Of a stretch of 43,134 bases of DNA, positions 1,968-13,033 are shown in pieces; position 1 is the stretch's first letter, and each line of letters begins with the position of its first letter. Source of the DNA: a virus; the IMG/VR virus record IMGVR_UViG_3300026457_000029, positions 1 through 43,134 of that record; one strand, written 5' to 3'. The notes below the pieces were generated by a model, which saw nothing but the letters and a program-made list of their open reading frames with translations, was not told the origin of the DNA and did not search any database. Made by a program: the position numbers and the translations under genes.

Positions 1968-2507
1968 TCAATACCGCAGTTTGCTGTGAACTCCGTCCTT
2001 GATAGAATTATAATCGGAATAGTTCCCGCCGTCAATAGTGTTGTCGTCTGTGAAGACTTCCGAAAATCCAGACCTTTCAAGGATTTTATTTTTGATTTCC
2101 AATTGACGCTTTTCTCTTTGGATGCGACGAAGGAAAGCGTAGTGAATGATTTGAGTGAAGTATGCGAAAGGATTTTGTGACTTCTCCGGATTGAAATTGT
2201 GAATGTACTGAACACAATTTTCAATACCATCAGAAATCATATCTTCCTTGAACATGTAGTTCACGAAGTTTGGTTTAAAGGAAAGGTGATTCGCAATCTT
2301 TAAGAAACACTCTCCAATGTAGCGGGGAATAGGAGGTTTTGTATCCCAAGTCTTTGCACGGTCTTCTTTCGTTAATTCTCTGCCAAACTTTTTAATAAAA
2401 GTTATTTCAACATCTTCACGATATTTGATGATAGCAGCAAGGAACTCTTTATTATTGACATAATGCTCTGACCTTTTTCTTTTGGCCATGACTGCTGTGG
2501 TAATCAT
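1968..2507 (-). CDS. 55: gp55, late-transcription sigma factor
   Basis: A 179-residue protein with the T4 gp55 signature: YVNNKEFLAAI near the N-terminus, EDMISDGIENCVQYIHNF in the sigma region 2-like core, and NPFAYFTQIIHYAFLRRI for DNA and polymerase contact. It should direct host RNA polymerase to TATAAATA-type late promoters such as those upstream of the virion genes here. Two starts are possible: ATG at 2507, or an in-frame ATG at 2489 giving MAKRKRSE. Neither has a clear Shine-Dalgarno, and the shorter product matches the T4 N-terminus better. A strong sigma70-type promoter lies directly upstream. gp47 follows with no gap. Confidence 0.95.
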   Translation of the reverse strand: MITTAVMAKRKRSEHYVNNKEFLAAIIKYREDVEITFIKKFGRELTKEDRAKTWDTKPPIPRYIGECFLKIANHLSFKPNFVNYMFKEDMISDGIENCVQYIHNFNPEKSQNPFAYFTQIIHYAFLRRIQREKRQLEIKNKILERSGFSEVFTDDNTIDGGNYSDYNSIKDGVHSKLRY

Positions 2508-2532
2508 AAGTTTTTATCATTATTATGTATAG

Positions 2533-2561
2533 ATTATACCACTTATACAAATGCTTGACAA
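2533..2561 (-). promoter_or_regulatory. sigma70-type promoter of gp55 (extended -10)
   Basis: On the minus strand TTGTCA (2556-2561) is followed after exactly 17 bases by TATAAT (2533-2538), and TGG precedes the -10, making it an extended -10 element. The predicted transcription start is near 2526, about 19 bases before the first gp55 ATG. Host polymerase should read it without phage factors, so gp55-gp47-DUF3110-gp46 can be made before the late genes. Confidence 0.85.
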
Positions 2562-2612
2562 GGTATTCAAAAGTTGATACAATTACCTTTGTGGAGGTTG
2601 ATAAGATAAGCT

Positions 2613-3005
2613 TTAACTATTTTTATAGAGTTTCTCTAATATCTCTTTAGCATCATTGACATTAGAGATATAACCCATTTTACGACTGATTTTTGATTGA
2701 TTTATACTTTTTTTATCAGATTGTCGTACATAATTTTGATACATCATTATTATTTTTATATCTGAAGATTCGGAAAGAGTTAATACATCTTCAAGATTTA
2801 TTAAAAACATATCTTCCTTTGTTGTTTTTAACCAAGGTTCTATTTTATATCCAACAACTCCCATTCTAGTAGTAACTTCGCTTAAAACAATGGGATTTGA
2901 AATAATCAATATTGTTCGATCTTCTTCTTCAGAGGCAGCAACTTTAGCAAATATTTCTTCCCCTGTTTTTAATTTTATTGTTGCATAAAAATCGTCTTCT
3001 ATCAT
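2613..3005 (-). CDS. Sm-like (LSm fold) protein, putative
   Basis: A 130-residue protein. The N-terminal 75 residues have an Sm1/Sm2-like layout: FYATIKLKTGEEIFAKV, then ILIISNPIVLSEV, then PWLKTTKEDMFLINLEDV, meaning a small beta barrel in which a strand bearing K-TGEE is followed by strands ending with NP and N-LEDV. A C-terminal tail of about 45 residues is helical and basic. From memory, an Sm-like protein of putative cyanophage origin has been solved by structural genomics, and this looks like the same type. Its ATG overlaps the UvsW stop by four bases, so the two are co-translated. It may bind RNA or act in a ring, but this is inferred from fold only. Confidence 0.65.
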   Translation of the reverse strand: MIEDDFYATIKLKTGEEIFAKVAASEEEDRTILIISNPIVLSEVTTRMGVVGYKIEPWLKTTKEDMFLINLEDVLTLSESSDIKIIMMYQNYVRQSDKKSINQSKISRKMGYISNVNDAKEILEKLYKNS

Positions 3006-4471
3006 TTTTTTAAATTAATTGTAATTATATCGTAATTAAAATTCTCTTCATTATAGATCTTAATTCTTTCAATGAGATGATTTAGAGTATAATTTTTTCT
3101 TGCGTTATATGTACAGTCATCAGCGATATCATAAAGTGTTGCTTTTACTTTGTCTTTTCCTTTTCTAAGAACTCGTCCAATGCTTTGAAGATTACGAATT
3201 CTTGATTTGCTTGGTGAGGCAAAAATAACATTATGTAAATTTTTGATGTTGATTCCGGTAGAAAAAGTTCCATAAGATGCAACAATAATTGCATTATTTT
3301 CTCTTTCTGTAATTTCTCTAACCAATTCTCTTTCTTCAGCGTCAACTCCACCATGAATAAAAAATACTTTACGATCATTTCGCTTATTAGTATTTATCTT
3401 TTCAAATAAGATAGCTCCATGCGCTTCTACTCTTGAAAATAAAATAAGGGTATTTCCTTTTAAATCTAATGCAAGATTTGTAATAAATTTATTTCTTTGT
3501 TCATGAGAAATTAAATATTGAATCTCATCTTCATAAGTTTCAAATTTTTGTGGATTATGTTTTAAAACAATACACTGAATATCTAATTGTGATAAATGAC
3601 CTTGCCTCATCAATTCATCTGTTTTGGTAACTTTATAAGATGGACCAAATAACCCCTCTAAAACCCATTTATGTGTTTGTGTTCCATCAAGAGTTCCAGT
3701 AAAACCAAAACGATATTTTGCATGATGAAGTTTGGTCATAATTTCTATCAAGGATTTGCTCTTGAAAAGATGAGCTTCATCGCCTATAATTACATTATAT
3801 TCTTCAAAAAAAGATCTCTCTAGTTTATAAACAGACTGCCAAGTTGTGATCGTTACAGAATATTCATTTGTTTTTTCTTTACCCGAATAAATACGGTGAC
3901 AATATGAATCAGCATCCCAACCATAGTCTTGGAAATCCTTGTACATCTGCTCTACCAAAGATGTCGTTGGAACAACTAGAAGAATTTTTTGTCCTTTATC
4001 TACATAATACCTTACGAGGGAATAAATCATCAAGGATTTTCCTGAGGCTGTGGGTGATATCAATAATTTTCGGTTATGTCGTAGAGCATCGTATACTCCC
4101 TCTACTTGATACTCCCGTGGAGAATGAGCACAAATAGATTTCATATAGTCTTTTACACCTTCATATGAAATATTTTGATTTATTTCGAAAGGTTGTCCGT
4201 AAAATTTGTTATCTTCAAACTTATAAGAATATCCGTATTGATTGCAAAAATTTACAATTTTATCTAAGAGACCAACATATATTTGTTTCGATCTCATATC
4301 ATATAAATGAATTTCTCCATTCCAATTTCTACCTCTATACTGAGGCATAAATTTTGCATTAGGAACCTCAAACTTAAAGTGATCTCTAAGTTCATACTCA
4401 ATATGAGGTTCTGTATTGATTTTTAAAAATACTTCGTTTGATTTAGAAATAATAAGATCGGTTGTGTTCAC
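3002..4471 (-). CDS. uvsW: UvsW, RNA-DNA and DNA helicase (SF2)
   Basis: A 489-residue superfamily 2 helicase. The N-terminal 90 residues match the T4 UvsW accessory domain (ELRDHFKFEVPNAKF, NWNGEIHLYD). Helicase motifs follow: SPTASGKS at 139-146 (Walker A), DEAH at 231-234, GFTGTL at 256-261 and SIGRVLRKGK in motif VI. In T4 it unwinds R-loops and branched intermediates and switches replication from origins to recombination. The start is GTG at 4469-4471; the in-frame codons just upstream are TGA ATC ATC, so no ATG start is possible. A late-type box lies 22 bases before it and overlaps the UvsY stop. The Sm-like gene overlaps its 3' end. Confidence 0.95.
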   Translation of the reverse strand: MNTTDLIISKSNEVFLKINTEPHIEYELRDHFKFEVPNAKFMPQYRGRNWNGEIHLYDMRSKQIYVGLLDKIVNFCNQYGYSYKFEDNKFYGQPFEINQNISYEGVKDYMKSICAHSPREYQVEGVYDALRHNRKLLISPTASGKSLMIYSLVRYYVDKGQKILLVVPTTSLVEQMYKDFQDYGWDADSYCHRIYSGKEKTNEYSVTITTWQSVYKLERSFFEEYNVIIGDEAHLFKSKSLIEIMTKLHHAKYRFGFTGTLDGTQTHKWVLEGLFGPSYKVTKTDELMRQGHLSQLDIQCIVLKHNPQKFETYEDEIQYLISHEQRNKFITNLALDLKGNTLILFSRVEAHGAILFEKINTNKRNDRKVFFIHGGVDAEERELVREITERENNAIIVASYGTFSTGINIKNLHNVIFASPSKSRIRNLQSIGRVLRKGKDKVKATLYDIADDCTYNARKNYTLNHLIERIKIYNEENFNYDIITINLKK

Positions 4472-5503: not shown

Positions 5504-5511
5504 TATTTAGA
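5504..5511 (-). promoter_or_regulatory. late promoter box upstream of gp3-uvsY
   Basis: TCTAAATA on the minus strand, just downstream of the gp23 terminator. The box ends nine bases before the gp3 ATG, so a T4-like start site would give a leader of only a few bases. Confidence 0.6.
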
Positions 5512-5512
5512 T

Positions 5513-5539
5513 AAAAAAAGAGACCCTTTTGGGGTCTCT
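5513..5539 (-). terminator. intrinsic terminator after gp23
   Basis: The minus strand reads AGAGACCC, a five-base loop, then GGGTCTCT: an eight-base perfect stem (5519-5526 with 5532-5539) followed by seven T residues. It sits about 22 bases after the gp23 stop and before the gp3 late box. There is no T-run on the other side, so it works for minus-strand transcripts only. Confidence 0.93.
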
Positions 5540-5561
5540 CGATAATCTTATGTGATATTGA

Positions 5562-6992
5562 TCACATGAGGTTCTTAACAGCAACTCTTCTGTAGTAGCG
5601 GTTCTGGTTGGTCTGAAGACGACCGAGACCCTGATTGGTTCCTTCTGCAAATGGGTTAGCAACAAGACCATAACGGGTCTTAAAGCCAATCTTAGGCTGG
5701 AAGGAGTTCTCACCAACGGCACGAACCATTTGGAGAGGAACATAAGGACAATAGAAGAGTCCAGCGTCATAAGGGGAAGCACCCTTATAACCAACAACAT
5801 AATACTGGTTACCTGGTGAGGTGTTACCCGCAGTGAGGTTAGCAGAATATGGGTCAATGTAGACGCGGAATTTGCCCATTAGAGTACCAGCAAAAGTATT
5901 GCCGGTGTCATCAACAGACAGATTAGCGTTAAGTGCAGGGGTGTAGTCTAGAACACCAGCCATGGTTAGTGCTGAAGCAACATCAGCAGAACACATGATG
6001 ATGTTACCCTTTCCGCGACGAGTTCTTTGTGCGATTGCGTTAGCATCACGCTCGATTTGGAATAGGAGACCCTTGAACTTCTCAACTGACCAACGACCGT
6101 TGGAGTCAACATCGAGGTCGAAGATACCAGCTGTTGCAGTGTTTTGAACAGCACCCTGTTCAGCAACCTTATAGATGGTTCTGATAACTTCGCGGTTGAT
6201 TTCAGCAAGAATCTCAGTTGAGAGAATGTTTGCTAATTCCGCTTCAGCATTCAGACCATGGATTGCCTTGAGGTCTTGAGCGAGTTCTAATGAGTACTCA
6301 GCTTTCAGAGCGCGTGACTTTGCAGTAACAGTGACTTTCTCGATTGAGAATGCCATCTGGTTGAATGCATCACCAGCTGTACCATCAAGGTTTTCTGCGT
6401 CGCCAGTAACCATACCCTGACCTACATTGTAGGCGGTTGAGGTTGCGCTACCAACTGGGTTTAGAACTGATGGGTTGCTTCCTGCTTGTGCAGTAGTACC
6501 CATACCAACGCCAACTTCAGTAAATCCTGCAGCCTCATCAAAACCTGCGTCTTGACCGGAGAATGCAGTATCTACTTCATTGAAGAAGGTTTCAGTTCCG
6601 CTTTGGTTGGTATAGCGGGAACGCATTGCGAAGATAAGTCCAGTAGGACCACTCATTGGTTGAACGCCAGCCAGGTCATAAGCGACCAGGTTGGGCATTG
6701 AACGACGAATGAGTGAAATCAGAACTGGATCAAAACCTGCAGTAGGACCACCAGCAGCGGAACCGCCACCGAAAGCACCACTAGCACCAGCAGCATTACC
6801 GCTGTTGGTTGGTGACTCCATGAGCATACTCATGGAACCGTTGTCGAAAGCAGATTGCTCTCTTAAAAATTTTTCTTGGTTTTCGAGCAGGACAGCGGTT
6901 ACAGCTCTACGATGAGAATCTTTGATAGGGTCGATACCCTGATAATCTAGTAGAGGTGCCCACTTTTCCTGCAGATGCTCAGAATGGAACAT
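5562..6992 (-). CDS. 23: gp23, major capsid protein
   Basis: A 476-residue HK97-fold capsid protein. The N-terminus LQEKWAPLLDYQGIDPIKD and the TAVLLENQEKFL block are typical of T4-like gp23, as are RSMPNLVAYDLAGVQPMSGP and the C-terminal FQPKIGFKTRYGLVANPF. Residues 57-59 (LME, followed by S60) fit the [IL]-x-E cleavage rule of the gp21 protease and lie near the T4 site (after residue 65). A Gly/Ala-rich flexible stretch follows at about 66-83. The ribosome site is AAGGT, eight bases from the ATG. A strong terminator follows. Its GC content is visibly higher than that of the tail genes, consistent with a heavily translated gene. Confidence 0.97.
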   Translation of the reverse strand: MFHSEHLQEKWAPLLDYQGIDPIKDSHRRAVTAVLLENQEKFLREQSAFDNGSMSMLMESPTNSGNAAGASGAFGGGSAAGGPTAGFDPVLISLIRRSMPNLVAYDLAGVQPMSGPTGLIFAMRSRYTNQSGTETFFNEVDTAFSGQDAGFDEAAGFTEVGVGMGTTAQAGSNPSVLNPVGSATSTAYNVGQGMVTGDAENLDGTAGDAFNQMAFSIEKVTVTAKSRALKAEYSLELAQDLKAIHGLNAEAELANILSTEILAEINREVIRTIYKVAEQGAVQNTATAGIFDLDVDSNGRWSVEKFKGLLFQIERDANAIAQRTRRGKGNIIMCSADVASALTMAGVLDYTPALNANLSVDDTGNTFAGTLMGKFRVYIDPYSANLTAGNTSPGNQYYVVGYKGASPYDAGLFYCPYVPLQMVRAVGENSFQPKIGFKTRYGLVANPFAEGTNQGLGRLQTNQNRYYRRVAVKNLM

Positions 6993-7044: not shown

Positions 7045-8199
7045 TCAGTTTTTGGCGACTGCCTGAAGAGTTCTTAGGTAGGTAGCCATTTGACCGGAAA
7101 TTACTTCAGGTGCTGGATCCATACCATCCGACAAAGTTTCAGTTCTGGCCTGTGGAGAAACTACTCTTGAAGGAAAATATGATTCCTTCAAAGTCTCCAG
7201 CTTTTCACGATATTTTGCTTCACTTTCAAACTCAACACTTTCGGCAAGTGAAGCGAGCTTGTCTTTCTGAGTGTCTGCTAGACCTTCAGCGACTTCTTCA
7301 AAGATTCCATCAGCAACCGACTCTGCGAGACGCTTGTTAAGTGAAATGTTCTTCTCAATTTGCTCGTTGAGTTTTGTCTCCATTTCATCAAGTTTTTCTA
7401 CCATGCTTTCAAGCACATTATATTTATCTTCAGGGATTGATACATAATGTTCTTCAAAAAGACCCTTCATTCCTGCAAGGAATGATTCGGTCATTTCGGT
7501 CTTAAGACCGCTTTCAACTGCAAGAATATTTTCTTGCATCCACTCTTCAGATACATACTCAAGGTATGCATCTACGCGCTCCGAAAGTTCAGTTTTAATT
7601 TCTTGAACTTCTTCTGCAAGAGCAGCAACATACTGCTCTTCAAGTGCTTCTTTAATATCAGAAACTTTGGAACGAAGAGCAGCTTCAAAAATGGTTCTTG
7701 CTTTTTCTTGGAACTCTTCGGAGAGTTCTTCGCCAGCAAGCAGAGCATTAACATCTTCTTCGATGCTAAACTCTTCTTCCATTTCTTCTTCTTCTTCTCC
7801 TTCCTCTTCTTCCTTCTTTTTGCCTTTCTTACCGCCTTCTTCTTCCTCTTCTCCTTCCTCTTCTTCCTTAGCGGCTTCTAGGAGCTCTTCATCTTCATCA
7901 TACTCAAGTTCTTCATCTTCCTTAACACCTTTCATTGCTTCCGCAGGTTTAGCACCTTTGTTGACAACATCCTTAACTTGCTTAAGGGTTCCTCCAGGTG
8001 TTTTAAGTTTTGCAGAATCATCATCTGGACGGTAGTTGGAAGGATCTGGACCTCCAAGATCTTCCCATCCGCCCGTTTGTCCATCAGGAATATTGCCTGA
8101 TAGGTTTGGCATTGCTTCTCCAGCCTTTGCATTTGCATTAACGGCGGTTTTGGATTGCTTAGTGCCTACTTCCATTTCTTGTAAATCTCCACGAGACAT
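7045..8199 (-). CDS. 22: gp22, prohead scaffold protein
   Basis: A 384-residue, highly acidic, mostly helical protein in the gp22 position between the protease and the major capsid gene. T4 gp22 has 269 residues; the excess is an N-terminal region with a run of Glu/Asp at about 94-149 broken only by a KKGKKK patch. The rest is predicted coiled coil with many [IL]-x-E sites suited to destruction by gp21. It forms the inner core on which gp23 assembles. Upstream are a late box (8239-8246) and a good GGAGAG ribosome site (8205-8210). The assignment rests on position and composition more than on sequence motifs. Confidence 0.88.
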   Translation of the reverse strand: MSRGDLQEMEVGTKQSKTAVNANAKAGEAMPNLSGNIPDGQTGGWEDLGGPDPSNYRPDDDSAKLKTPGGTLKQVKDVVNKGAKPAEAMKGVKEDEELEYDEDEELLEAAKEEEEGEEEEEGGKKGKKKEEEEGEEEEEMEEEFSIEEDVNALLAGEELSEEFQEKARTIFEAALRSKVSDIKEALEEQYVAALAEEVQEIKTELSERVDAYLEYVSEEWMQENILAVESGLKTEMTESFLAGMKGLFEEHYVSIPEDKYNVLESMVEKLDEMETKLNEQIEKNISLNKRLAESVADGIFEEVAEGLADTQKDKLASLAESVEFESEAKYREKLETLKESYFPSRVVSPQARTETLSDGMDPAPEVISGQMATYLRTLQAVAKN

Positions 8200-8256: not shown

Positions 8257-8910
8257 TTACAATGAATTTAAAAACTCATTGAATAATTTAATTTTATGTT
8301 CTTCTAGTATTCTTTGATCAACTAGAGCATTAATTTTTCTTTTGGTATTCTCTGCTAATTTCTCTCGCAAAATACCACCATCCCAAATCCACTCTTTACC
8401 TTCCATAATTCCCTGAACAAAAGCGTCAGGTGCAGAAGGATCTGCAACAATATCTGCTGCAGTTGCAAGCATAAAATCTTCACCAACTTCTTTAAATCCT
8501 TTAGTATTTTCTCTTAAAGAACCAATTCCACGAGATGAAACACCAAGAGTCACTCCATCTTTGAGAAGTGATTCGGCAATTTTACCCATTGGAGTGGATA
8601 AAATTTGTGCCTTACCAATAAAGTTATTACCACTTTGCTTGAGTTCTGTAATTTTATGAGAAACTCTATCAAGATTTACAGTAGGTCCATCTGGATGACC
8701 TAATTCGCCAAGTGCTCTACCTTTTTGAACATAATTTTCATTATAACGGTTAACTTCTCTTTCCATAATTTGGAAAGGATACATTCTACCATTACGATTA
8801 ACACATTCACTTTGGAGGAAAACTCCCTGAATATAAAGTTGTTTTTTACCACCTACAGTTTCGGTGATAACTTCTACTTTTTCTACTTCTTCTCTGATAA
8901 GTTTCATCAT
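8257..8910 (-). CDS. 21: gp21, prohead maturation protease
   Basis: A 217-residue serine protease of the T4 prohead type. The N-terminal core has VNRNGRMYPFQIMEREV. The catalytic His is in GELGHPDGP (H72) and the Ser in GVSSRG (S125/S126), and an AADIVADPSAPDAFV segment contributes an Asp (D153 or D157). It cleaves scaffold, capsid and internal proteins after [IL]-x-E during maturation. The ATG overlaps the stop of the preceding 183-residue gene by four bases. gp22 follows after a late promoter. Confidence 0.95.
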   Translation of the reverse strand: MMKLIREEVEKVEVITETVGGKKQLYIQGVFLQSECVNRNGRMYPFQIMEREVNRYNENYVQKGRALGELGHPDGPTVNLDRVSHKITELKQSGNNFIGKAQILSTPMGKIAESLLKDGVTLGVSSRGIGSLRENTKGFKEVGEDFMLATAADIVADPSAPDAFVQGIMEGKEWIWDGGILREKLAENTKRKINALVDQRILEEHKIKLFNEFLNSL

Positions 8911-9458
8911 GCTTGTCCTGAGATTTGTACTTGTTGGTAATAAAGAGTTCCTGAACCGACACCATATGCAGAAACTTTATTTGAAATCGAAACACTAGCA
9001 TCTGTTGGGGCAAATGCAGTTAAAATTCCACTAGAGTTATTATCTACGGTCATTCTTGTTTGATAATAACCATTTATACCGGCACTCGTATCAACTGACA
9101 AAACTTGTTTATGAGTGAAATCATAATATGACTGACCACCAACTGTTAAAGATACATAATCACCAACCCCAAATGGAACTTGAGTTCCTTCTGGAACAAT
9201 AATAGTTGTTGTTGTACCTGTAGTAACTCCAACAACTTTATTTGATGCTTTAGTCAATGCAAGAGTTTCTGATCCACCAGAAGAAATATAATAATCAGTG
9301 GAAGTTGCTGAAGGATTTCCTCCCACAGAAATATGAGCTGCTCCTCCAACAGCAACCACTCTCAAAACACTTGATTGTACTGAAAATGCAGATGATGTTG
9401 TTGCAGCACCTGCAGTAAATGTAAATGAGGAACCTGCCCCAACTGGTCTGTGAGCCAT
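8907..9458 (-). CDS. virion protein of unknown role, head module (183 aa)
   Basis: A 183-residue Gly/Ser/Thr-rich beta protein without signal peptide. It has the pattern VLRVVAVGGAAHISVGG followed by NPSATSTDYYI and a glutamate-leucine strand, which I recall from several marine phage virion proteins. It sits between the 441-residue gene and gp21 and overlaps gp21 by four bases, so it is made with head-assembly proteins. It could be a capsid decoration or fibre-base protein; no T4 counterpart is in this position. A late box lies 25 bases upstream. Confidence 0.7.
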   Translation of the reverse strand: MAHRPVGAGSSFTFTAGAATTSSAFSVQSSVLRVVAVGGAAHISVGGNPSATSTDYYISSGGSETLALTKASNKVVGVTTGTTTTIIVPEGTQVPFGVGDYVSLTVGGQSYYDFTHKQVLSVDTSAGINGYYQTRMTVDNNSSGILTAFAPTDASVSISNKVSAYGVGSGTLYYQQVQISGQA

Positions 9459-9496: not shown

Positions 9497-10822
9497 TCAA
9501 GTTAAGTCATAAAAACTCAAAGCACCAATACAATTTCCACTTCCAGAAATTGCTCTAACTGCTAATGTAAATGTGTCACTAACTTTTGCTTGAGTTCTTC
9601 CAAGTTGTAAATCCCAATTATATTCTGTATTTTCGTTTAAAGCAGTTGATGCTTTATTTGCAGATGAAATATATTCTGCTCTAACAACTGTTCCACCAGA
9701 CATAGAAGTTGCAGTTGTATTTTGCTCCACATTTGGAGATGAAGAATTTACCCAACTTCCGCCACTGAGAGTTGCATTTTTAATGAGAGCGACTTCATAA
9801 TAAACTGATGTTGCACTATCTGGAAGTGCATTAATTTGATTCGGAAGAATAACTGCATCTTCTCTTCCTGCTTTGAGACGAATACTTACAAGAGGAATAA
9901 AAGTTGTAGATGCTACTGAAACTAGTGCATCTTGTCTTGCTACATCTGATGCAACCCTTTTTTCATAACCACCATTAGATTGAATAGAAACGCATATCTG
10001 TTTCATTGTTGATGTAGATGTTGTGACTCCAGTGTTTAATATTTCATATCTAACTGGAAGTGTAGCAGTTGTCATATATGTACTATTAATTGTATTTGCA
10101 TGATTAAAGATATGAGTAATATGAAAATTACCATCCTTATTTACAAATCCGCAACGAACTGCACCAACACCTAACCACTCATATTCGGTGAACATAATTT
10201 GTGCCATTGATAAATCCAATCTATGTCCACTTGAATTTTTAGATGTTGTTCCCACTCCAACACCATCATAAGTATCAATATTCCATTCGGATTGTGGAAC
10301 TTTAATTTCTGTGCTAATACCAGATCTTTCAGTTCTCATTACCCAGTATACTGTGGTAATTCCAGTAGAATCAGTTGCTTGTTCTAAAACTACGCCATTT
10401 GTTGATGATGCATAACCAACTCTTTGAGTAAGATTTGCTTTTGGTGATGCCATTACAAATGTTTGAAAAACTTGTAATGCTTTACCAGGTTGATATGAAA
10501 ATACTCTTTTACTTTCTCTTACAATAGAACAACCTGCAGTAGTACCAATTCCTAATGTTGCAGTACTTTGATGTGTTATAATTCCAACAGTAGATCCTGC
10601 TCCAAGAATTACATCATCAAAATCACCATCTTGAGAATATCTATGAGTTGAGTCAAAAAGAGTAAATGGTTGTGATACTTTTAATCTACCAAAAAGATCT
10701 CCTGAAAATCCTTGACCTAATGGATCAAAAATATTTCCAAATTTATCTGCTTGTAAAAAAACCTCAAAAAGACTTCTTTCTTGGTTCAAATAATCTTGAG
10801 TATTCTTATTCCACTGAGCCAT
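9497..10822 (-). CDS. virion structural protein, head module (441 aa)
   Basis: A 441-residue protein beginning MAQWNKNTQDYLNQERS. The middle contains GDLFGRLKVSQPFTLFDSTH, and the later half is beta-rich with Thr/Ser. I recall close relatives in many marine cyanophage genomes, annotated only as structural. It follows the 106-residue gp68-position protein by three bases and precedes another virion gene, so its place is between portal/core genes and the protease. A capsid-associated or vertex-associated role is inferred from position only. No enzymatic motif was seen. Confidence 0.75.
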   Translation of the reverse strand: MAQWNKNTQDYLNQERSLFEVFLQADKFGNIFDPLGQGFSGDLFGRLKVSQPFTLFDSTHRYSQDGDFDDVILGAGSTVGIITHQSTATLGIGTTAGCSIVRESKRVFSYQPGKALQVFQTFVMASPKANLTQRVGYASSTNGVVLEQATDSTGITTVYWVMRTERSGISTEIKVPQSEWNIDTYDGVGVGTTSKNSSGHRLDLSMAQIMFTEYEWLGVGAVRCGFVNKDGNFHITHIFNHANTINSTYMTTATLPVRYEILNTGVTTSTSTMKQICVSIQSNGGYEKRVASDVARQDALVSVASTTFIPLVSIRLKAGREDAVILPNQINALPDSATSVYYEVALIKNATLSGGSWVNSSSPNVEQNTTATSMSGGTVVRAEYISSANKASTALNENTEYNWDLQLGRTQAKVSDTFTLAVRAISGSGNCIGALSFYDLT

Positions 10823-10825
10823 TTA

Positions 10826-11146
10826 TCAATCAATCCATTCTAATTTTGATGGGTGGTATCTGCTTGCTTTTTTAATATTGCAGTTCTTTTCTGCAATTGG
10901 ATAAATCTGGTGAACAATTGCACCTGGATATTCTGCTTGCAATTCTTCACCTAAAGATTGTTTTGATGGAATACCAGTTCTGCTGGTCAATTCCATCCTA
11001 TAAAGACTTCCATTCCATACTACATCTGCAACATATCCTTCACCAACTGATTGTTGTTCTGGTTGAGAAGAATTGATGTAAAGATTTCCGTTAAAATCTC
11101 CGGAAATATTTACTGATTCTGAGATGAATTGTTGAAATGATTTCAT
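10826..11146 (-). CDS. gp68-position protein with internal-protein-like targeting peptide
   Basis: A 106-residue protein in the slot of T4 prohead core gene 68. Its first residues, MKSFQQFISE, closely resemble the T4 internal protein III capsid-targeting peptide as I recall it (MKTYQEFIAE), and Ile-Ser-Glu at 8-10 followed by Ser fits gp21 cleavage after residue 10, leaving about 96 residues. Residues about 38-84 form a small domain (WNGSLYRMELT, IPSKQSLGEELQAEYPGA) that reappears inside the 662-residue protein. The ATG overlaps the stop of the gp67-like gene (ATGA). It is probably packaged in the head; function inside is unknown. Confidence 0.75.
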   Translation of the reverse strand: MKSFQQFISESVNISGDFNGNLYINSSQPEQQSVGEGYVADVVWNGSLYRMELTSRTGIPSKQSLGEELQAEYPGAIVHQIYPIAEKNCNIKKASRYHPSKLEWID

Positions 11147-11319
11147 TGTTCCTCTTCTACTTCTCCAGAAAACATTGAAACTGCAACAGAAGGTCGGAAA
11201 GAATCTATTTTTTCTGCTGATTTTGTGAATAAAAGTTCTTTAATTTTGTCGCTAATCTGAGAAGGTGATTCGTCAGAGACAATCATATCCATAAGATCAT
11301 CCATTTTTAATAAACTCAT
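11143..11319 (-). CDS. 67: gp67-like prohead core peptide (58 aa)
   Basis: A 58-residue gene, start ATG at 11319, reading MSLLKMDDLMDMIV and ending FSGEVEEEQ. It lies directly after the portal gene, where T4 has gene 67, and shares with T4 gp67 a short helix (DKIKELLFTKSAEKID) and an acidic end, though it lacks the long Asp/Glu tail of T4. gp67 is an abundant scaffold component cut up by gp21. A late box ends 14 bases upstream, and the gene overlaps the next one by four bases. The call rests on position, size and weak similarity. Confidence 0.75.
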   Translation of the reverse strand: MSLLKMDDLMDMIVSDESPSQISDKIKELLFTKSAEKIDSFRPSVAVSMFSGEVEEEQ

Positions 11320-11332
11320 AAGTAATCTCTAG

Positions 11333-11340
11333 TATTTATT
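11333..11340 (-). promoter_or_regulatory. late promoter box at the gp20 stop codon
   Basis: AATAAATA on the minus strand. Its first two bases are part of the gp20 stop codon (TAA at 11339-11341). It would drive the gp67-like gene and the rest of the head-core operon. Confidence 0.6.
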
Positions 11341-13033
11341 AAATTTCTCCACCCTTAGGCATTTCTGCAATTTTACCACTTGCTTCGGTGGCAGCACCTT
11401 GAGCATCTAAATTTGGTTCCATCACTGGTTGTCCCAAATTCATTCCTGCAGGTTGTTGTCCAGGTTCTAATGGCATACCTGTCATTGGATCTATTGGTGC
11501 ATTTGGATCTGGAATAATACCATCTTTAATTTCTTTTTTCATAATTTTATCCTGCTCAAGAATTTCTTCATCAGTTTGACGAAGAATCTTTCTTCTCAAA
11601 TAATCTTGAGAAAAATACTTTCCAACATAAGGTTCTGCAATCTGAACCATATTCAATCTTTCATTGAGTAACTCAGCATCCTTGAGTTCAGCAAAGTGAT
11701 TATCATATAAGAAGTCATATTGAATATGCTCACTCATAATTTCCCAGTCTTCTGGAGTGATAATATTTTTGAGAATCAATTGCGTTCTCAACATATCATG
11801 GAACATGTATGAGAATCTTTTTCTCAAACGAGCAACAAACTTGCTAAACTTAACTTCATCTCTCAGAATTTCTGATGACCGACCAAGATTAAATCCACCT
11901 TCTCCATCCATTCTTGATGGTGGGACATTTAGTGAACGATAAAGTTTCTTCTTAAAATATTCAATATCTGTAATCTCTCCAAGGTTTTGACCACCAGGAA
12001 GTGTAGAGATTTCAGTTCCTCTACCACCTTCTCTTCTTGGGAGCCAGAAGTCCTCAAGCATTGCCATGAATTTTTTATCATCGCGAATTTCTCCGGTGCT
12101 TGCATCATATACCAGTTTATTGCGATAACGCATCATAACATCACGAAGATATTGTTCCGCCTTAACCTTTGGTAGATTACCTACATCAATATAAAAAATT
12201 CTTCTTTCTGGCGCACGAGACAGACGATAAATTACCAGTGAGTCTTCAATCATTCGCAGTTGATTGAGGGACTTGATTGCTTTATGAAGATATGAAAGTG
12301 TTGATCCCTTATTCCTATCTACAAGACCTGAGGTGCAATATGTGATAGAATCCTTTGACATTTTAATTCCAGTATTTCCACCTAAAGAAGATGGATTTGT
12401 GGTTGGATATGTCATCTTTGGATTATAGATGAAATATTCCTCAATTTCAGGAAACTCATAATCCATTGGATTATCAGCATTTATATTAGACAGTCTATAT
12501 CTGTTGTTATCTTTCTCATTCTTTTTATGTTGTCTCACATAACGCATTTTAATTGCGTCTATGTAACGAAGTTCTTGAATTCCTTCTTGTGGATTCTTTA
12601 GATCAATTACTTTGTGATAAAATAACCTTCCATCAATATACCAATTCCTATAAATTTCGTGAGATTTTTTATCAAAATCTAAAAGTGATAAAATATGTTT
12701 GAATTCTTGTCGTATTTTATTCTTAATACCATCACTAGCGTTCAGATTTGAAAGTTCAATTTCTACTGGACTGTCATTTGTATCCGACACTATGGCTTCA
12801 TTTACAATATCTTCAATGGCACTATCACACTCTGGATGAAGTGCCATTTCACGATATCTTTTAATTAAATCAAATTCAGTTCTATAAACACCTTCAATAT
12901 CTACATATGAACCAAAAAAACCACTACTCAAGTAGTGGTCTGACCCATCCTCATTATTTGGAGGAACGGGAGAGACCGTACTTGGAGATAGTGGTTCATT
13001 ATCCTCAATAGAGAATCCAAATAATTTTGACAT
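11339..13033 (-). CDS. 20: gp20, portal vertex protein
   Basis: A 564-residue portal protein (T4 gp20 has 524). Recognisable blocks are AIEDIVNEAIV near residue 85, WYIDGRLFYHKVIDL, LRYIDAIKMRYVR, RAPERRIFYIDVGNLPKVKAEQYL in portions, and PPSRMDGEGGFNLGRSSEI. It forms the dodecameric ring that nucleates the head and through which gp17 pumps DNA. The C-terminal 70 residues are Pro/Gly/Met-rich and likely flexible. The upstream gap holds a late box that overlaps the gp19 stop; no Shine-Dalgarno is visible. Confidence 0.96.
   Translation of the reverse strand: MSKLFGFSIEDNEPLSPSTVSPVPPNNEDGSDHYLSSGFFGSYVDIEGVYRTEFDLIKRYREMALHPECDSAIEDIVNEAIVSDTNDSPVEIELSNLNASDGIKNKIRQEFKHILSLLDFDKKSHEIYRNWYIDGRLFYHKVIDLKNPQEGIQELRYIDAIKMRYVRQHKKNEKDNNRYRLSNINADNPMDYEFPEIEEYFIYNPKMTYPTTNPSSLGGNTGIKMSKDSITYCTSGLVDRNKGSTLSYLHKAIKSLNQLRMIEDSLVIYRLSRAPERRIFYIDVGNLPKVKAEQYLRDVMMRYRNKLVYDASTGEIRDDKKFMAMLEDFWLPRREGGRGTEISTLPGGQNLGEITDIEYFKKKLYRSLNVPPSRMDGEGGFNLGRSSEILRDEVKFSKFVARLRKRFSYMFHDMLRTQLILKNIITPEDWEIMSEHIQYDFLYDNHFAELKDAELLNERLNMVQIAEPYVGKYFSQDYLRRKILRQTDEEILEQDKIMKKEIKDGIIPDPNAPIDPMTGMPLEPGQQPAGMNLGQPVMEPNLDAQGAATEASGKIAEMPKGGEI

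Follow-up and report, generated by a model that had tools for sequence, protein, structure and literature searches.

This locus raises the question of whether a small viral protein begins with a working capsid-targeting sequence of the kind that T4 places on its internal proteins (IPs). The cargo that T4-like cyanophages carry into cells with their DNA is hardly known, and a leader that can be read from sequence makes carriage versus contamination testable and gives lists of proteins that are candidates for injection. The window, i.e., the whole stretch of 43,134 bases analysed here, encodes a 106-aa protein whose translation opens MKSFQQFISESVNISGDF. We judge it probable that the first ten residues, MKSFQQFISE, function in capsid targeting as the T4 leaders do, so that the protein would be packed into the prohead and cut by gp21 to 96 aa.

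The minus strand carries the 106-aa ORF and the surrounding head genes (Table 1), transcribed in the order gp20, 58-aa ORF, 106-aa ORF, phrog_1645, DUF7243, gp21, gp22, and gp23, with the start ATG of the 106-aa ORF overlapping the stop of the 58-aa ORF. The latter is gp67-like by position only and matches two PHROGs of unknown function, phrog_14164 and phrog_2088. The gp21 protease, the gp22 scaffold, and gp23 are all encoded in the genome of the window. The 106-aa protein matched no Pfam family, and phrog_1742, of unknown function, was its sole PHROG match. A 126-kb record, IMGVR_UViG_3300024495_000015, is 99.995-100% identical to the window along the whole 43 kb, and the two are in effect one genome; the longer record supplied context beyond the window and could help in annotating the remainder of the phage.

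Table 1. Tagged ORF, its parts, and the head gene cluster in the window
Feature	Positions	Strand	Basis
gp20 portal (Portal_T4, E 1e-192)	11339..13033	-	PHROG + Pfam
58-aa ORF between portal and tagged gene; phrog_14164, phrog_2088	11143..11319	-	PHROG
106-aa protein, phrog_1742 (E 1.5e-39), with T4-type leader	10826..11146	-	PHROG profile match, alignment
Leader, residues 1-10 (MKSFQQFISE); predicted gp21 cleavage E10/S11	11117..11146	-	T4 IPII/IPIII match, 119/119 homologues
Conserved hairpin (SVNISGDFNGNLYINS) and variable linker, residues 11-35	11042..11116	-	alignment, AF2
Beta-beta-alpha-beta core module, residues 36-83	10898..11041	-	AF2, module homology
Virion structural protein phrog_1645, 441 aa, downstream neighbour	9497..10822	-	PHROG
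DUF7243 protein (phrog_682)	8907..9458	-	PHROG + Pfam
gp21 prohead protease (Peptidase_S77), predicted processing enzyme	8257..8910	-	Pfam
gp22 scaffold (T4_CASP, E 6.7e-81), predicted leader receptor	7045..8199	-	PHROG + Pfam
gp23 major capsid protein; candidate L-x-E/S maturation site MLME/S after residue 59	5562..6992	-	Pfam

The preliminary description had likened the leader to that of T4 IPIII, and T4 DNA bears this out: MKTYQEFIAE opens both ipII and ipIII and is identical to MKSFQQFISE at six of ten positions (1, 2, 5, 7, 8, and 10), the other four pairs being similar (S/T, F/Y, Q/E, and S/A). According to a review on T4 (PMC9026906), targeting works mainly via residues 4 and 7 of the leader and processing via residues 8 and 10, and gp21 cleaves after L/I-x-E. 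The T4-type leader and the I-x-E site that had been claimed for the new protein are likewise upheld: they are conserved in homologues, occur in a genome with gp21, gp22, and gp23, and recur on other proteins of these phages.

Alignment of homologues, which had been proposed as a check on residues 8-10, returns [ILM]8 and E10, together with [FY]4 and F7, in 119/119 distinct complete phrog_1742 homologues (from 183 loci). All 119 have S or T at residue 11, the two members of one further cluster have A there, and positions 5 and 9 are variable. Each of positions 2-11 uses more than one codon across homologues, which indicates that the residues themselves are conserved. Residues 14, 16, 19, and 20 are also invariant; the pattern suits a leader, but since several residues in 14-22 reach an equal degree of conservation, that of the leader is not specific by itself. 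The set comprises complete ORFs aligning from residue 1, with four of the 187 matched loci dropped; these four also align from residue 1, but end before a stop. Every locus search was run with six peptides, including the leader, and kept the best 80. Selection independent of the leader was provided by tblastn of the 106-aa protein, which matched 140 phage records (135 at ≥80% coverage), whose names all refer to Synechococcus, Prochlorococcus, or cyanophages. The matches begin at residue 1 in 60/60 best rows and in 58/60 evenly spread rows, two samples that leave 80 of the 140 records in neither set, and the two exceptions are weak module matches. In Syn33_106 (excerpt 3989-4327), the GenBank GTG start lies four codons before the conserved ATG and hides the leader.

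Beyond this family, the strict motif M[KR][ST][FY]xx[FY][ILM]xE occurs at 16 of 4,172 ATG starts among mechanically listed ORFs of at least 50 aa from nine cyanophage genomes or long contigs. The mean over 500 column permutations of the motif is 0.006 (maximum 1), and internal methionines give 0 of 6,240. Eight of the nine have at least one strict-motif ORF, Syn9 having none, and in T4 the motif picks ipII, ipIII, and 61.1 only. T4 61.1 (AF158101 18966-19130) is a 54-aa hypothetical protein opening MKTFKEFIKE/D, and a tagged ORF of 57 aa lies at 127516-127689 in DSL-LC02. Across 18 records (T4 included), a codon pattern gives 29 matches, none of them in S-PM2 or Syn9, and no match when read backwards on the same records. 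With A added at position 11, the codon pattern finds at least 123 matches on at least 120 contigs of a viral contig collection, where one codon-permuted pattern finds none. A looser leader motif also picks likely chance matches, such as a 183-aa T4 ORF (MKQYQDLIKD) and a 44-aa S-SCSM1 ORF, and the counts therefore use the strict form.

The proteins behind these leaders differ widely. Among the matches listed (123), leaders head 117 ORFs of at least 40 aa, some cut at contig ends; where the flank is long enough (122 listed matches), no other ATG separates the start from the preceding in-frame stop in 119. Past residue 11, the bodies among the matches listed fall into 38 blastp clusters (E 1e-4), the biggest of which is a cytidylyltransferase with 46 members among those matches. 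Pfam (0.01), applied to single representatives of the 38, recognizes a GNAT acetyltransferase, a DPBB_1 double-psi barrel, DUF6321, DUF5661, and DUF6267, with at most 11 of the 38 having any match, and PHROGs (0.01) on the same representatives include a 5′-3′ deoxyribonucleotidase family and phrog_1742. Four of the 38 match phrog_727 and three match phrog_3477, so the truly unrelated bodies are somewhat fewer than 38. Because the scan pattern fixes residues 1, 2, 4, 6, 7, 8, 10, and 11 wholly or partly, what counts as evidence is the diversity of bodies, the openness of the frames, and the number of matches. A gp21-type protease occurs in 4 of 50 submitted contigs (of the 120 listed), which is near the expectation for T4-like genomes given their sum of ~1.19 Mb. 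The 165-aa SSZBM1_192 (excerpt 5504-6001), encoded directly upstream of the phrog_1742 homologue SSZBM1_191, joins the leader MKTFKQYITE/A to a DUF6321 module. An environmental protein (excerpt 2604-3800) that by eye shares its DUF5661-like stretch with the leaderless phrog_727 protein of DSL-LC02 (excerpt 2004-4001) opens MKTFSQFFLE/A.

The sequences show that the leader is there, that its key residues are conserved in kind, that different proteins carry it, and that gp21 and gp22 are encoded in the same genome. It thus resembles a portable tag for capsid targeting of the T4 type. That dozens of viral proteins with differing bodies begin with it suggests a common route for packing cargo. Whether it serves environmental T4-like phages as a general, gp21-removable tag for packing and injecting dozens of proteins, including the cytidylyltransferase/NMNAT, a GNAT-type acetyltransferase, a double-psi-barrel protein, modules of the large virion protein, and the 106-aa protein, is in our estimate evenly balanced. 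If true, the proteins injected by a given phage as infection begins could be listed by reading leaders from sequence.

The tagged cytidylyltransferase family (T4-GC190, phrog_395) belongs to the core proteins of cyanophages, matches 537 phage records and, in excerpts of PMC3037559, is given for all 16 cyanophages considered. The phage of the window encodes a member opening MKSFFQFLSE/A (on IMGVR_UViG_3300024495_000015), and T4-GC190 of P-SSM2 opens MKSFSQFLTE. The leader persists where the architecture of the enzyme changes. In S-CRM01 (excerpt 196-1601), two genes encode parts of the enzyme, each with its own leader: by blastp, g128 corresponds to the N-terminal domain (E 3e-8), and g127 to the catalytic part (E 6e-63). 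The g127 leader is MKLFNQFFKE/A; that of g128 is MKLSLDSFIKE/A when read from an in-frame GTG, with AGTAGAGGAACAGAA before the GTG, which lies 14 codons inside the annotated start and is probably the true one. The P-TIM40 enzyme is without the N-terminal domain, yet keeps the leader MRFLDFIKE/A.

Members of this family have been reported by mass spectrometry (MS) of purified virions, according to excerpts of four publications: cytidylyltransferase/NMNAT ORF91 of S-SCSM1 (PMC9602691), with the leader MKSFLQFLKE; T4-GC190 of S-SM1 (PMC3037559); SSZBM1_140 of S-SZBM1 (PMC9146016, Table 1), matched by length and homology to a 362-aa ORF opening MRFRQFIIE/A; and ORF154 of S-CREM2 (PMC10665884, Table 3). 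The leader thus heads at least one protein that is repeatedly found with virions. In the excerpts concerned, the S-SCSM1 and S-CREM2 authors could not distinguish carriage of the enzyme from contamination (PMC9602691, PMC10665884).

Virion data give no such backing to the phrog_1742 family itself. The 30 proteins in the S-SZBM1 virion table (PMC9146016) include neither the homologue SSZBM1_191 nor the tagged SSZBM1_192. SSZBM1_190 (phrog_1645) and SSZBM1_195 are both in the table. In the S-SCSM1 record, whose virion labels are taken to reflect the MS of its authors, ORF29 and ORF31 are labelled as virion proteins and the homologue ORF30 is not. Of the five tagged proteins of S-SZBM1 and S-SCSM1, two are reported in virions, both of them the cytidylyltransferase. 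Virion proteomics often overlooks proteins of small size. Excerpts of PMC9026906 give several hundred copies for the T4 IPs, and at such numbers a phrog_1742 protein should be detected despite its small size.

The surroundings of the gene vary on one side and are steady on the other. The preliminary description had placed it in the gp67/gp68 core slot, next to the protease operon. The assignment stands for the clade of the window, where the gene lies between portal and protease, and fails for the family: among 180 loci (gathered with three queries and not deduplicated), the upstream gene is a portal or 58-aa-like ORF in only 79, a modular protein in 95, and neither in 6. The slot argument is therefore valid for the clade of the window only, and the slot was rejected as support for a core role because the usual place of the family is elsewhere. 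Among six GenBank neighbourhoods, five have gp16 and/or gp17 in view, Sf-FS3 having neither; gp16 and gp17 flank the homologue gene in DSL-LC02, Syn33, and S-SZBM1, and in S-SCSM1 and S-CAM9 it lies upstream of gp17. The constant neighbour is the structural gene just downstream, which among the 180 loci is phrog_1645-like in 161 and S-SCSM1 ORF31-like (phrog_8198) in 15, the remaining 4 lying off the contig. The first 32 residues of the phrog_1645 protein of the window (9497-10822) match phrog_8198 positions 1-32 (E 8e-5), and this common N-terminal stretch is perhaps a shared anchor; S-SCSM1 ORF31 matches the phrog_8198 profile only from position 30.

AlphaFold2 (AF2; 60 sequences) models the 106-aa protein with a pLDDT of 77 and a pTM of 0.48. 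The model has a poorly placed short helix at 4-8 (block mean pLDDT 62), a hairpin at 14-24, a disordered linker (pLDDT <50 at 28-33), and a confident beta-beta-alpha-beta core at 36-83, with block means of 83-93 over residues 41 to 80. Matches of the core in BFVD are S-CAM9 (E 5e-4) and S-SCSM1 (E 2.2e-3). A phrog_1742 match (E 1.2e-7 and 8e-5) lies within the modular DUF6321 protein in two of four scanned, and hhalign of the core against this module gives 97.7% over 55 columns. Because a large virion protein of relatives has this module in common with the core, a role with that protein or inside the head seems likelier than that of an enzyme. Against the PDB, Foldseek yields no match at E ≤0.001, weak matches of this kind being no proof of a new fold. 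The top match of the core is T7 Gp2 (4lk0_M, Z 4.8 over 50 residues at 2.3 Å, Foldseek E 0.74), tied with unrelated rows. A Gp2-like inhibitor of RNA polymerase was not adopted, as Z 4.8 is within the range of common arrangements, and is kept as a lead only. The predicted mature protein has a pI of 5.3, versus 9.6 for T4 IPII and IPIII, and a basic, IP-like body was rejected on this account. A second gp21-type site, L65-x-E67, keeps both L and E in 119/119 homologues.

On the favoured reading, aromatic residues 4 and 7 of the leader would dock the 106-aa protein on the gp22 scaffold core, and the docked protein would be enclosed in the prohead. Cleavage by gp21 after I-S-E10 would then give a 96-aa mature protein, S11-D106, expected to stay inside the head and probably to be ejected with the DNA. 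We infer this course of docking, cutting, retention, and ejection from T4, and consider the mechanism likely for the 106-aa protein. The steady link to the downstream structural gene is the basis of another explanation, in which the protein would assist assembly as a small factor, or pair with that structural protein (phrog_1645 or its substitute), and its N-terminus would be a docking helix that stays uncut. The neighbour is phrog_1645-like or phrog_8198 in 176/176 loci with a gene in reach, the homologue goes unreported in the virion proteomes of both S-SZBM1 and S-SCSM1, and several residues in 14-22 equal the leader in conservation. Against this, the leader is shared with the 38 body clusters among the matches listed and fits the T4 residue rules, and the 106-aa gene is retained where phrog_8198 replaces phrog_1645; we consider this role unlikely.

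The absence from virion lists would also be explained if the protein, taken into the prohead core by its leader, were a core component destined to be cut up by gp21 and lost before maturity, like T4 gp67 and gp68. The L65-x-E67 site and the gene position between portal and protease in the clade of the window agree with such a fate, but the site sits in the confidently folded core (helix 62-72), and 95 of the 180 sampled loci place the gene beside the modular protein, which leaves this outcome rather improbable. A chance match, or an N-terminal helix that is simply inherited and plays no part in targeting, has in its favour that the motif is short, at ten residues. Against this stand its conservation in 119/119 homologues and the controls, since column-permuted motifs, internal methionines, and the one permuted codon pattern give next to none versus 16 ORFs and at least 120 contigs; chance matching was rejected on these grounds, and the explanation as a whole is very hard to credit.

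The T4 packaging tag is discussed for T-even phages, and longer propeptides for giant phages, in excerpts of PMC9026906 and PMC5694885. A search of open-access full texts on capsid targeting together with cyanophage or marine gave no such cyanophage leader among its top-ranked matches, and the terms capsid targeting, propeptide, and N-terminal are all absent from the main text of the S-SCSM1 paper (PMC9602691). The presence of the leader in cyanophages, its breadth, and its enzyme cargo appear to be new, and would widen the known range of the T4 packaging tag to include cyanophages and enzymes as cargo.

Among known systems, the cytidylyltransferase shares with the 106-aa protein the leader type and the phages in which it occurs, and appears in four published virion proteomes; unlike the 106-aa protein, it is an enzyme of ~285-490 aa and matches 537 records, versus 135 (≥80% coverage) for phrog_1742. 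The DUF6321/phrog_727 modular protein contains a relative of the core module, but is 454-699 aa long, built of many modules, and leaderless in the four sequences read, including DSL-LC02. T4 gp67 and gp68 resemble the product of the window gene in being encoded between portal and protease, a place between gp20 and gp21 that is absent in most sampled relatives of phrog_1742. The closest parallel is with T4 IPII and IPIII, as portrayed in excerpts of PMC9026906 and PMC3012670. The 106-aa protein departs from them in its Kyanoviridae homologues, in a body with no recognized similarity, in being acidic instead of basic, and at residue 11, which is S or T in 119/119 phrog_1742 homologues versus A in IPII and IPIII. 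Because its presence in virions is a prediction and the basic character fails, it is described here as working like an IP and is not classed as one. What it has in common with IPII and IPIII is a ten-residue leader with aromatic residues at 4 and 7, I/L at 8, and E at 10, a small size, a genome encoding a gp21/gp22/gp23 head, and a leader that is found on different bodies.
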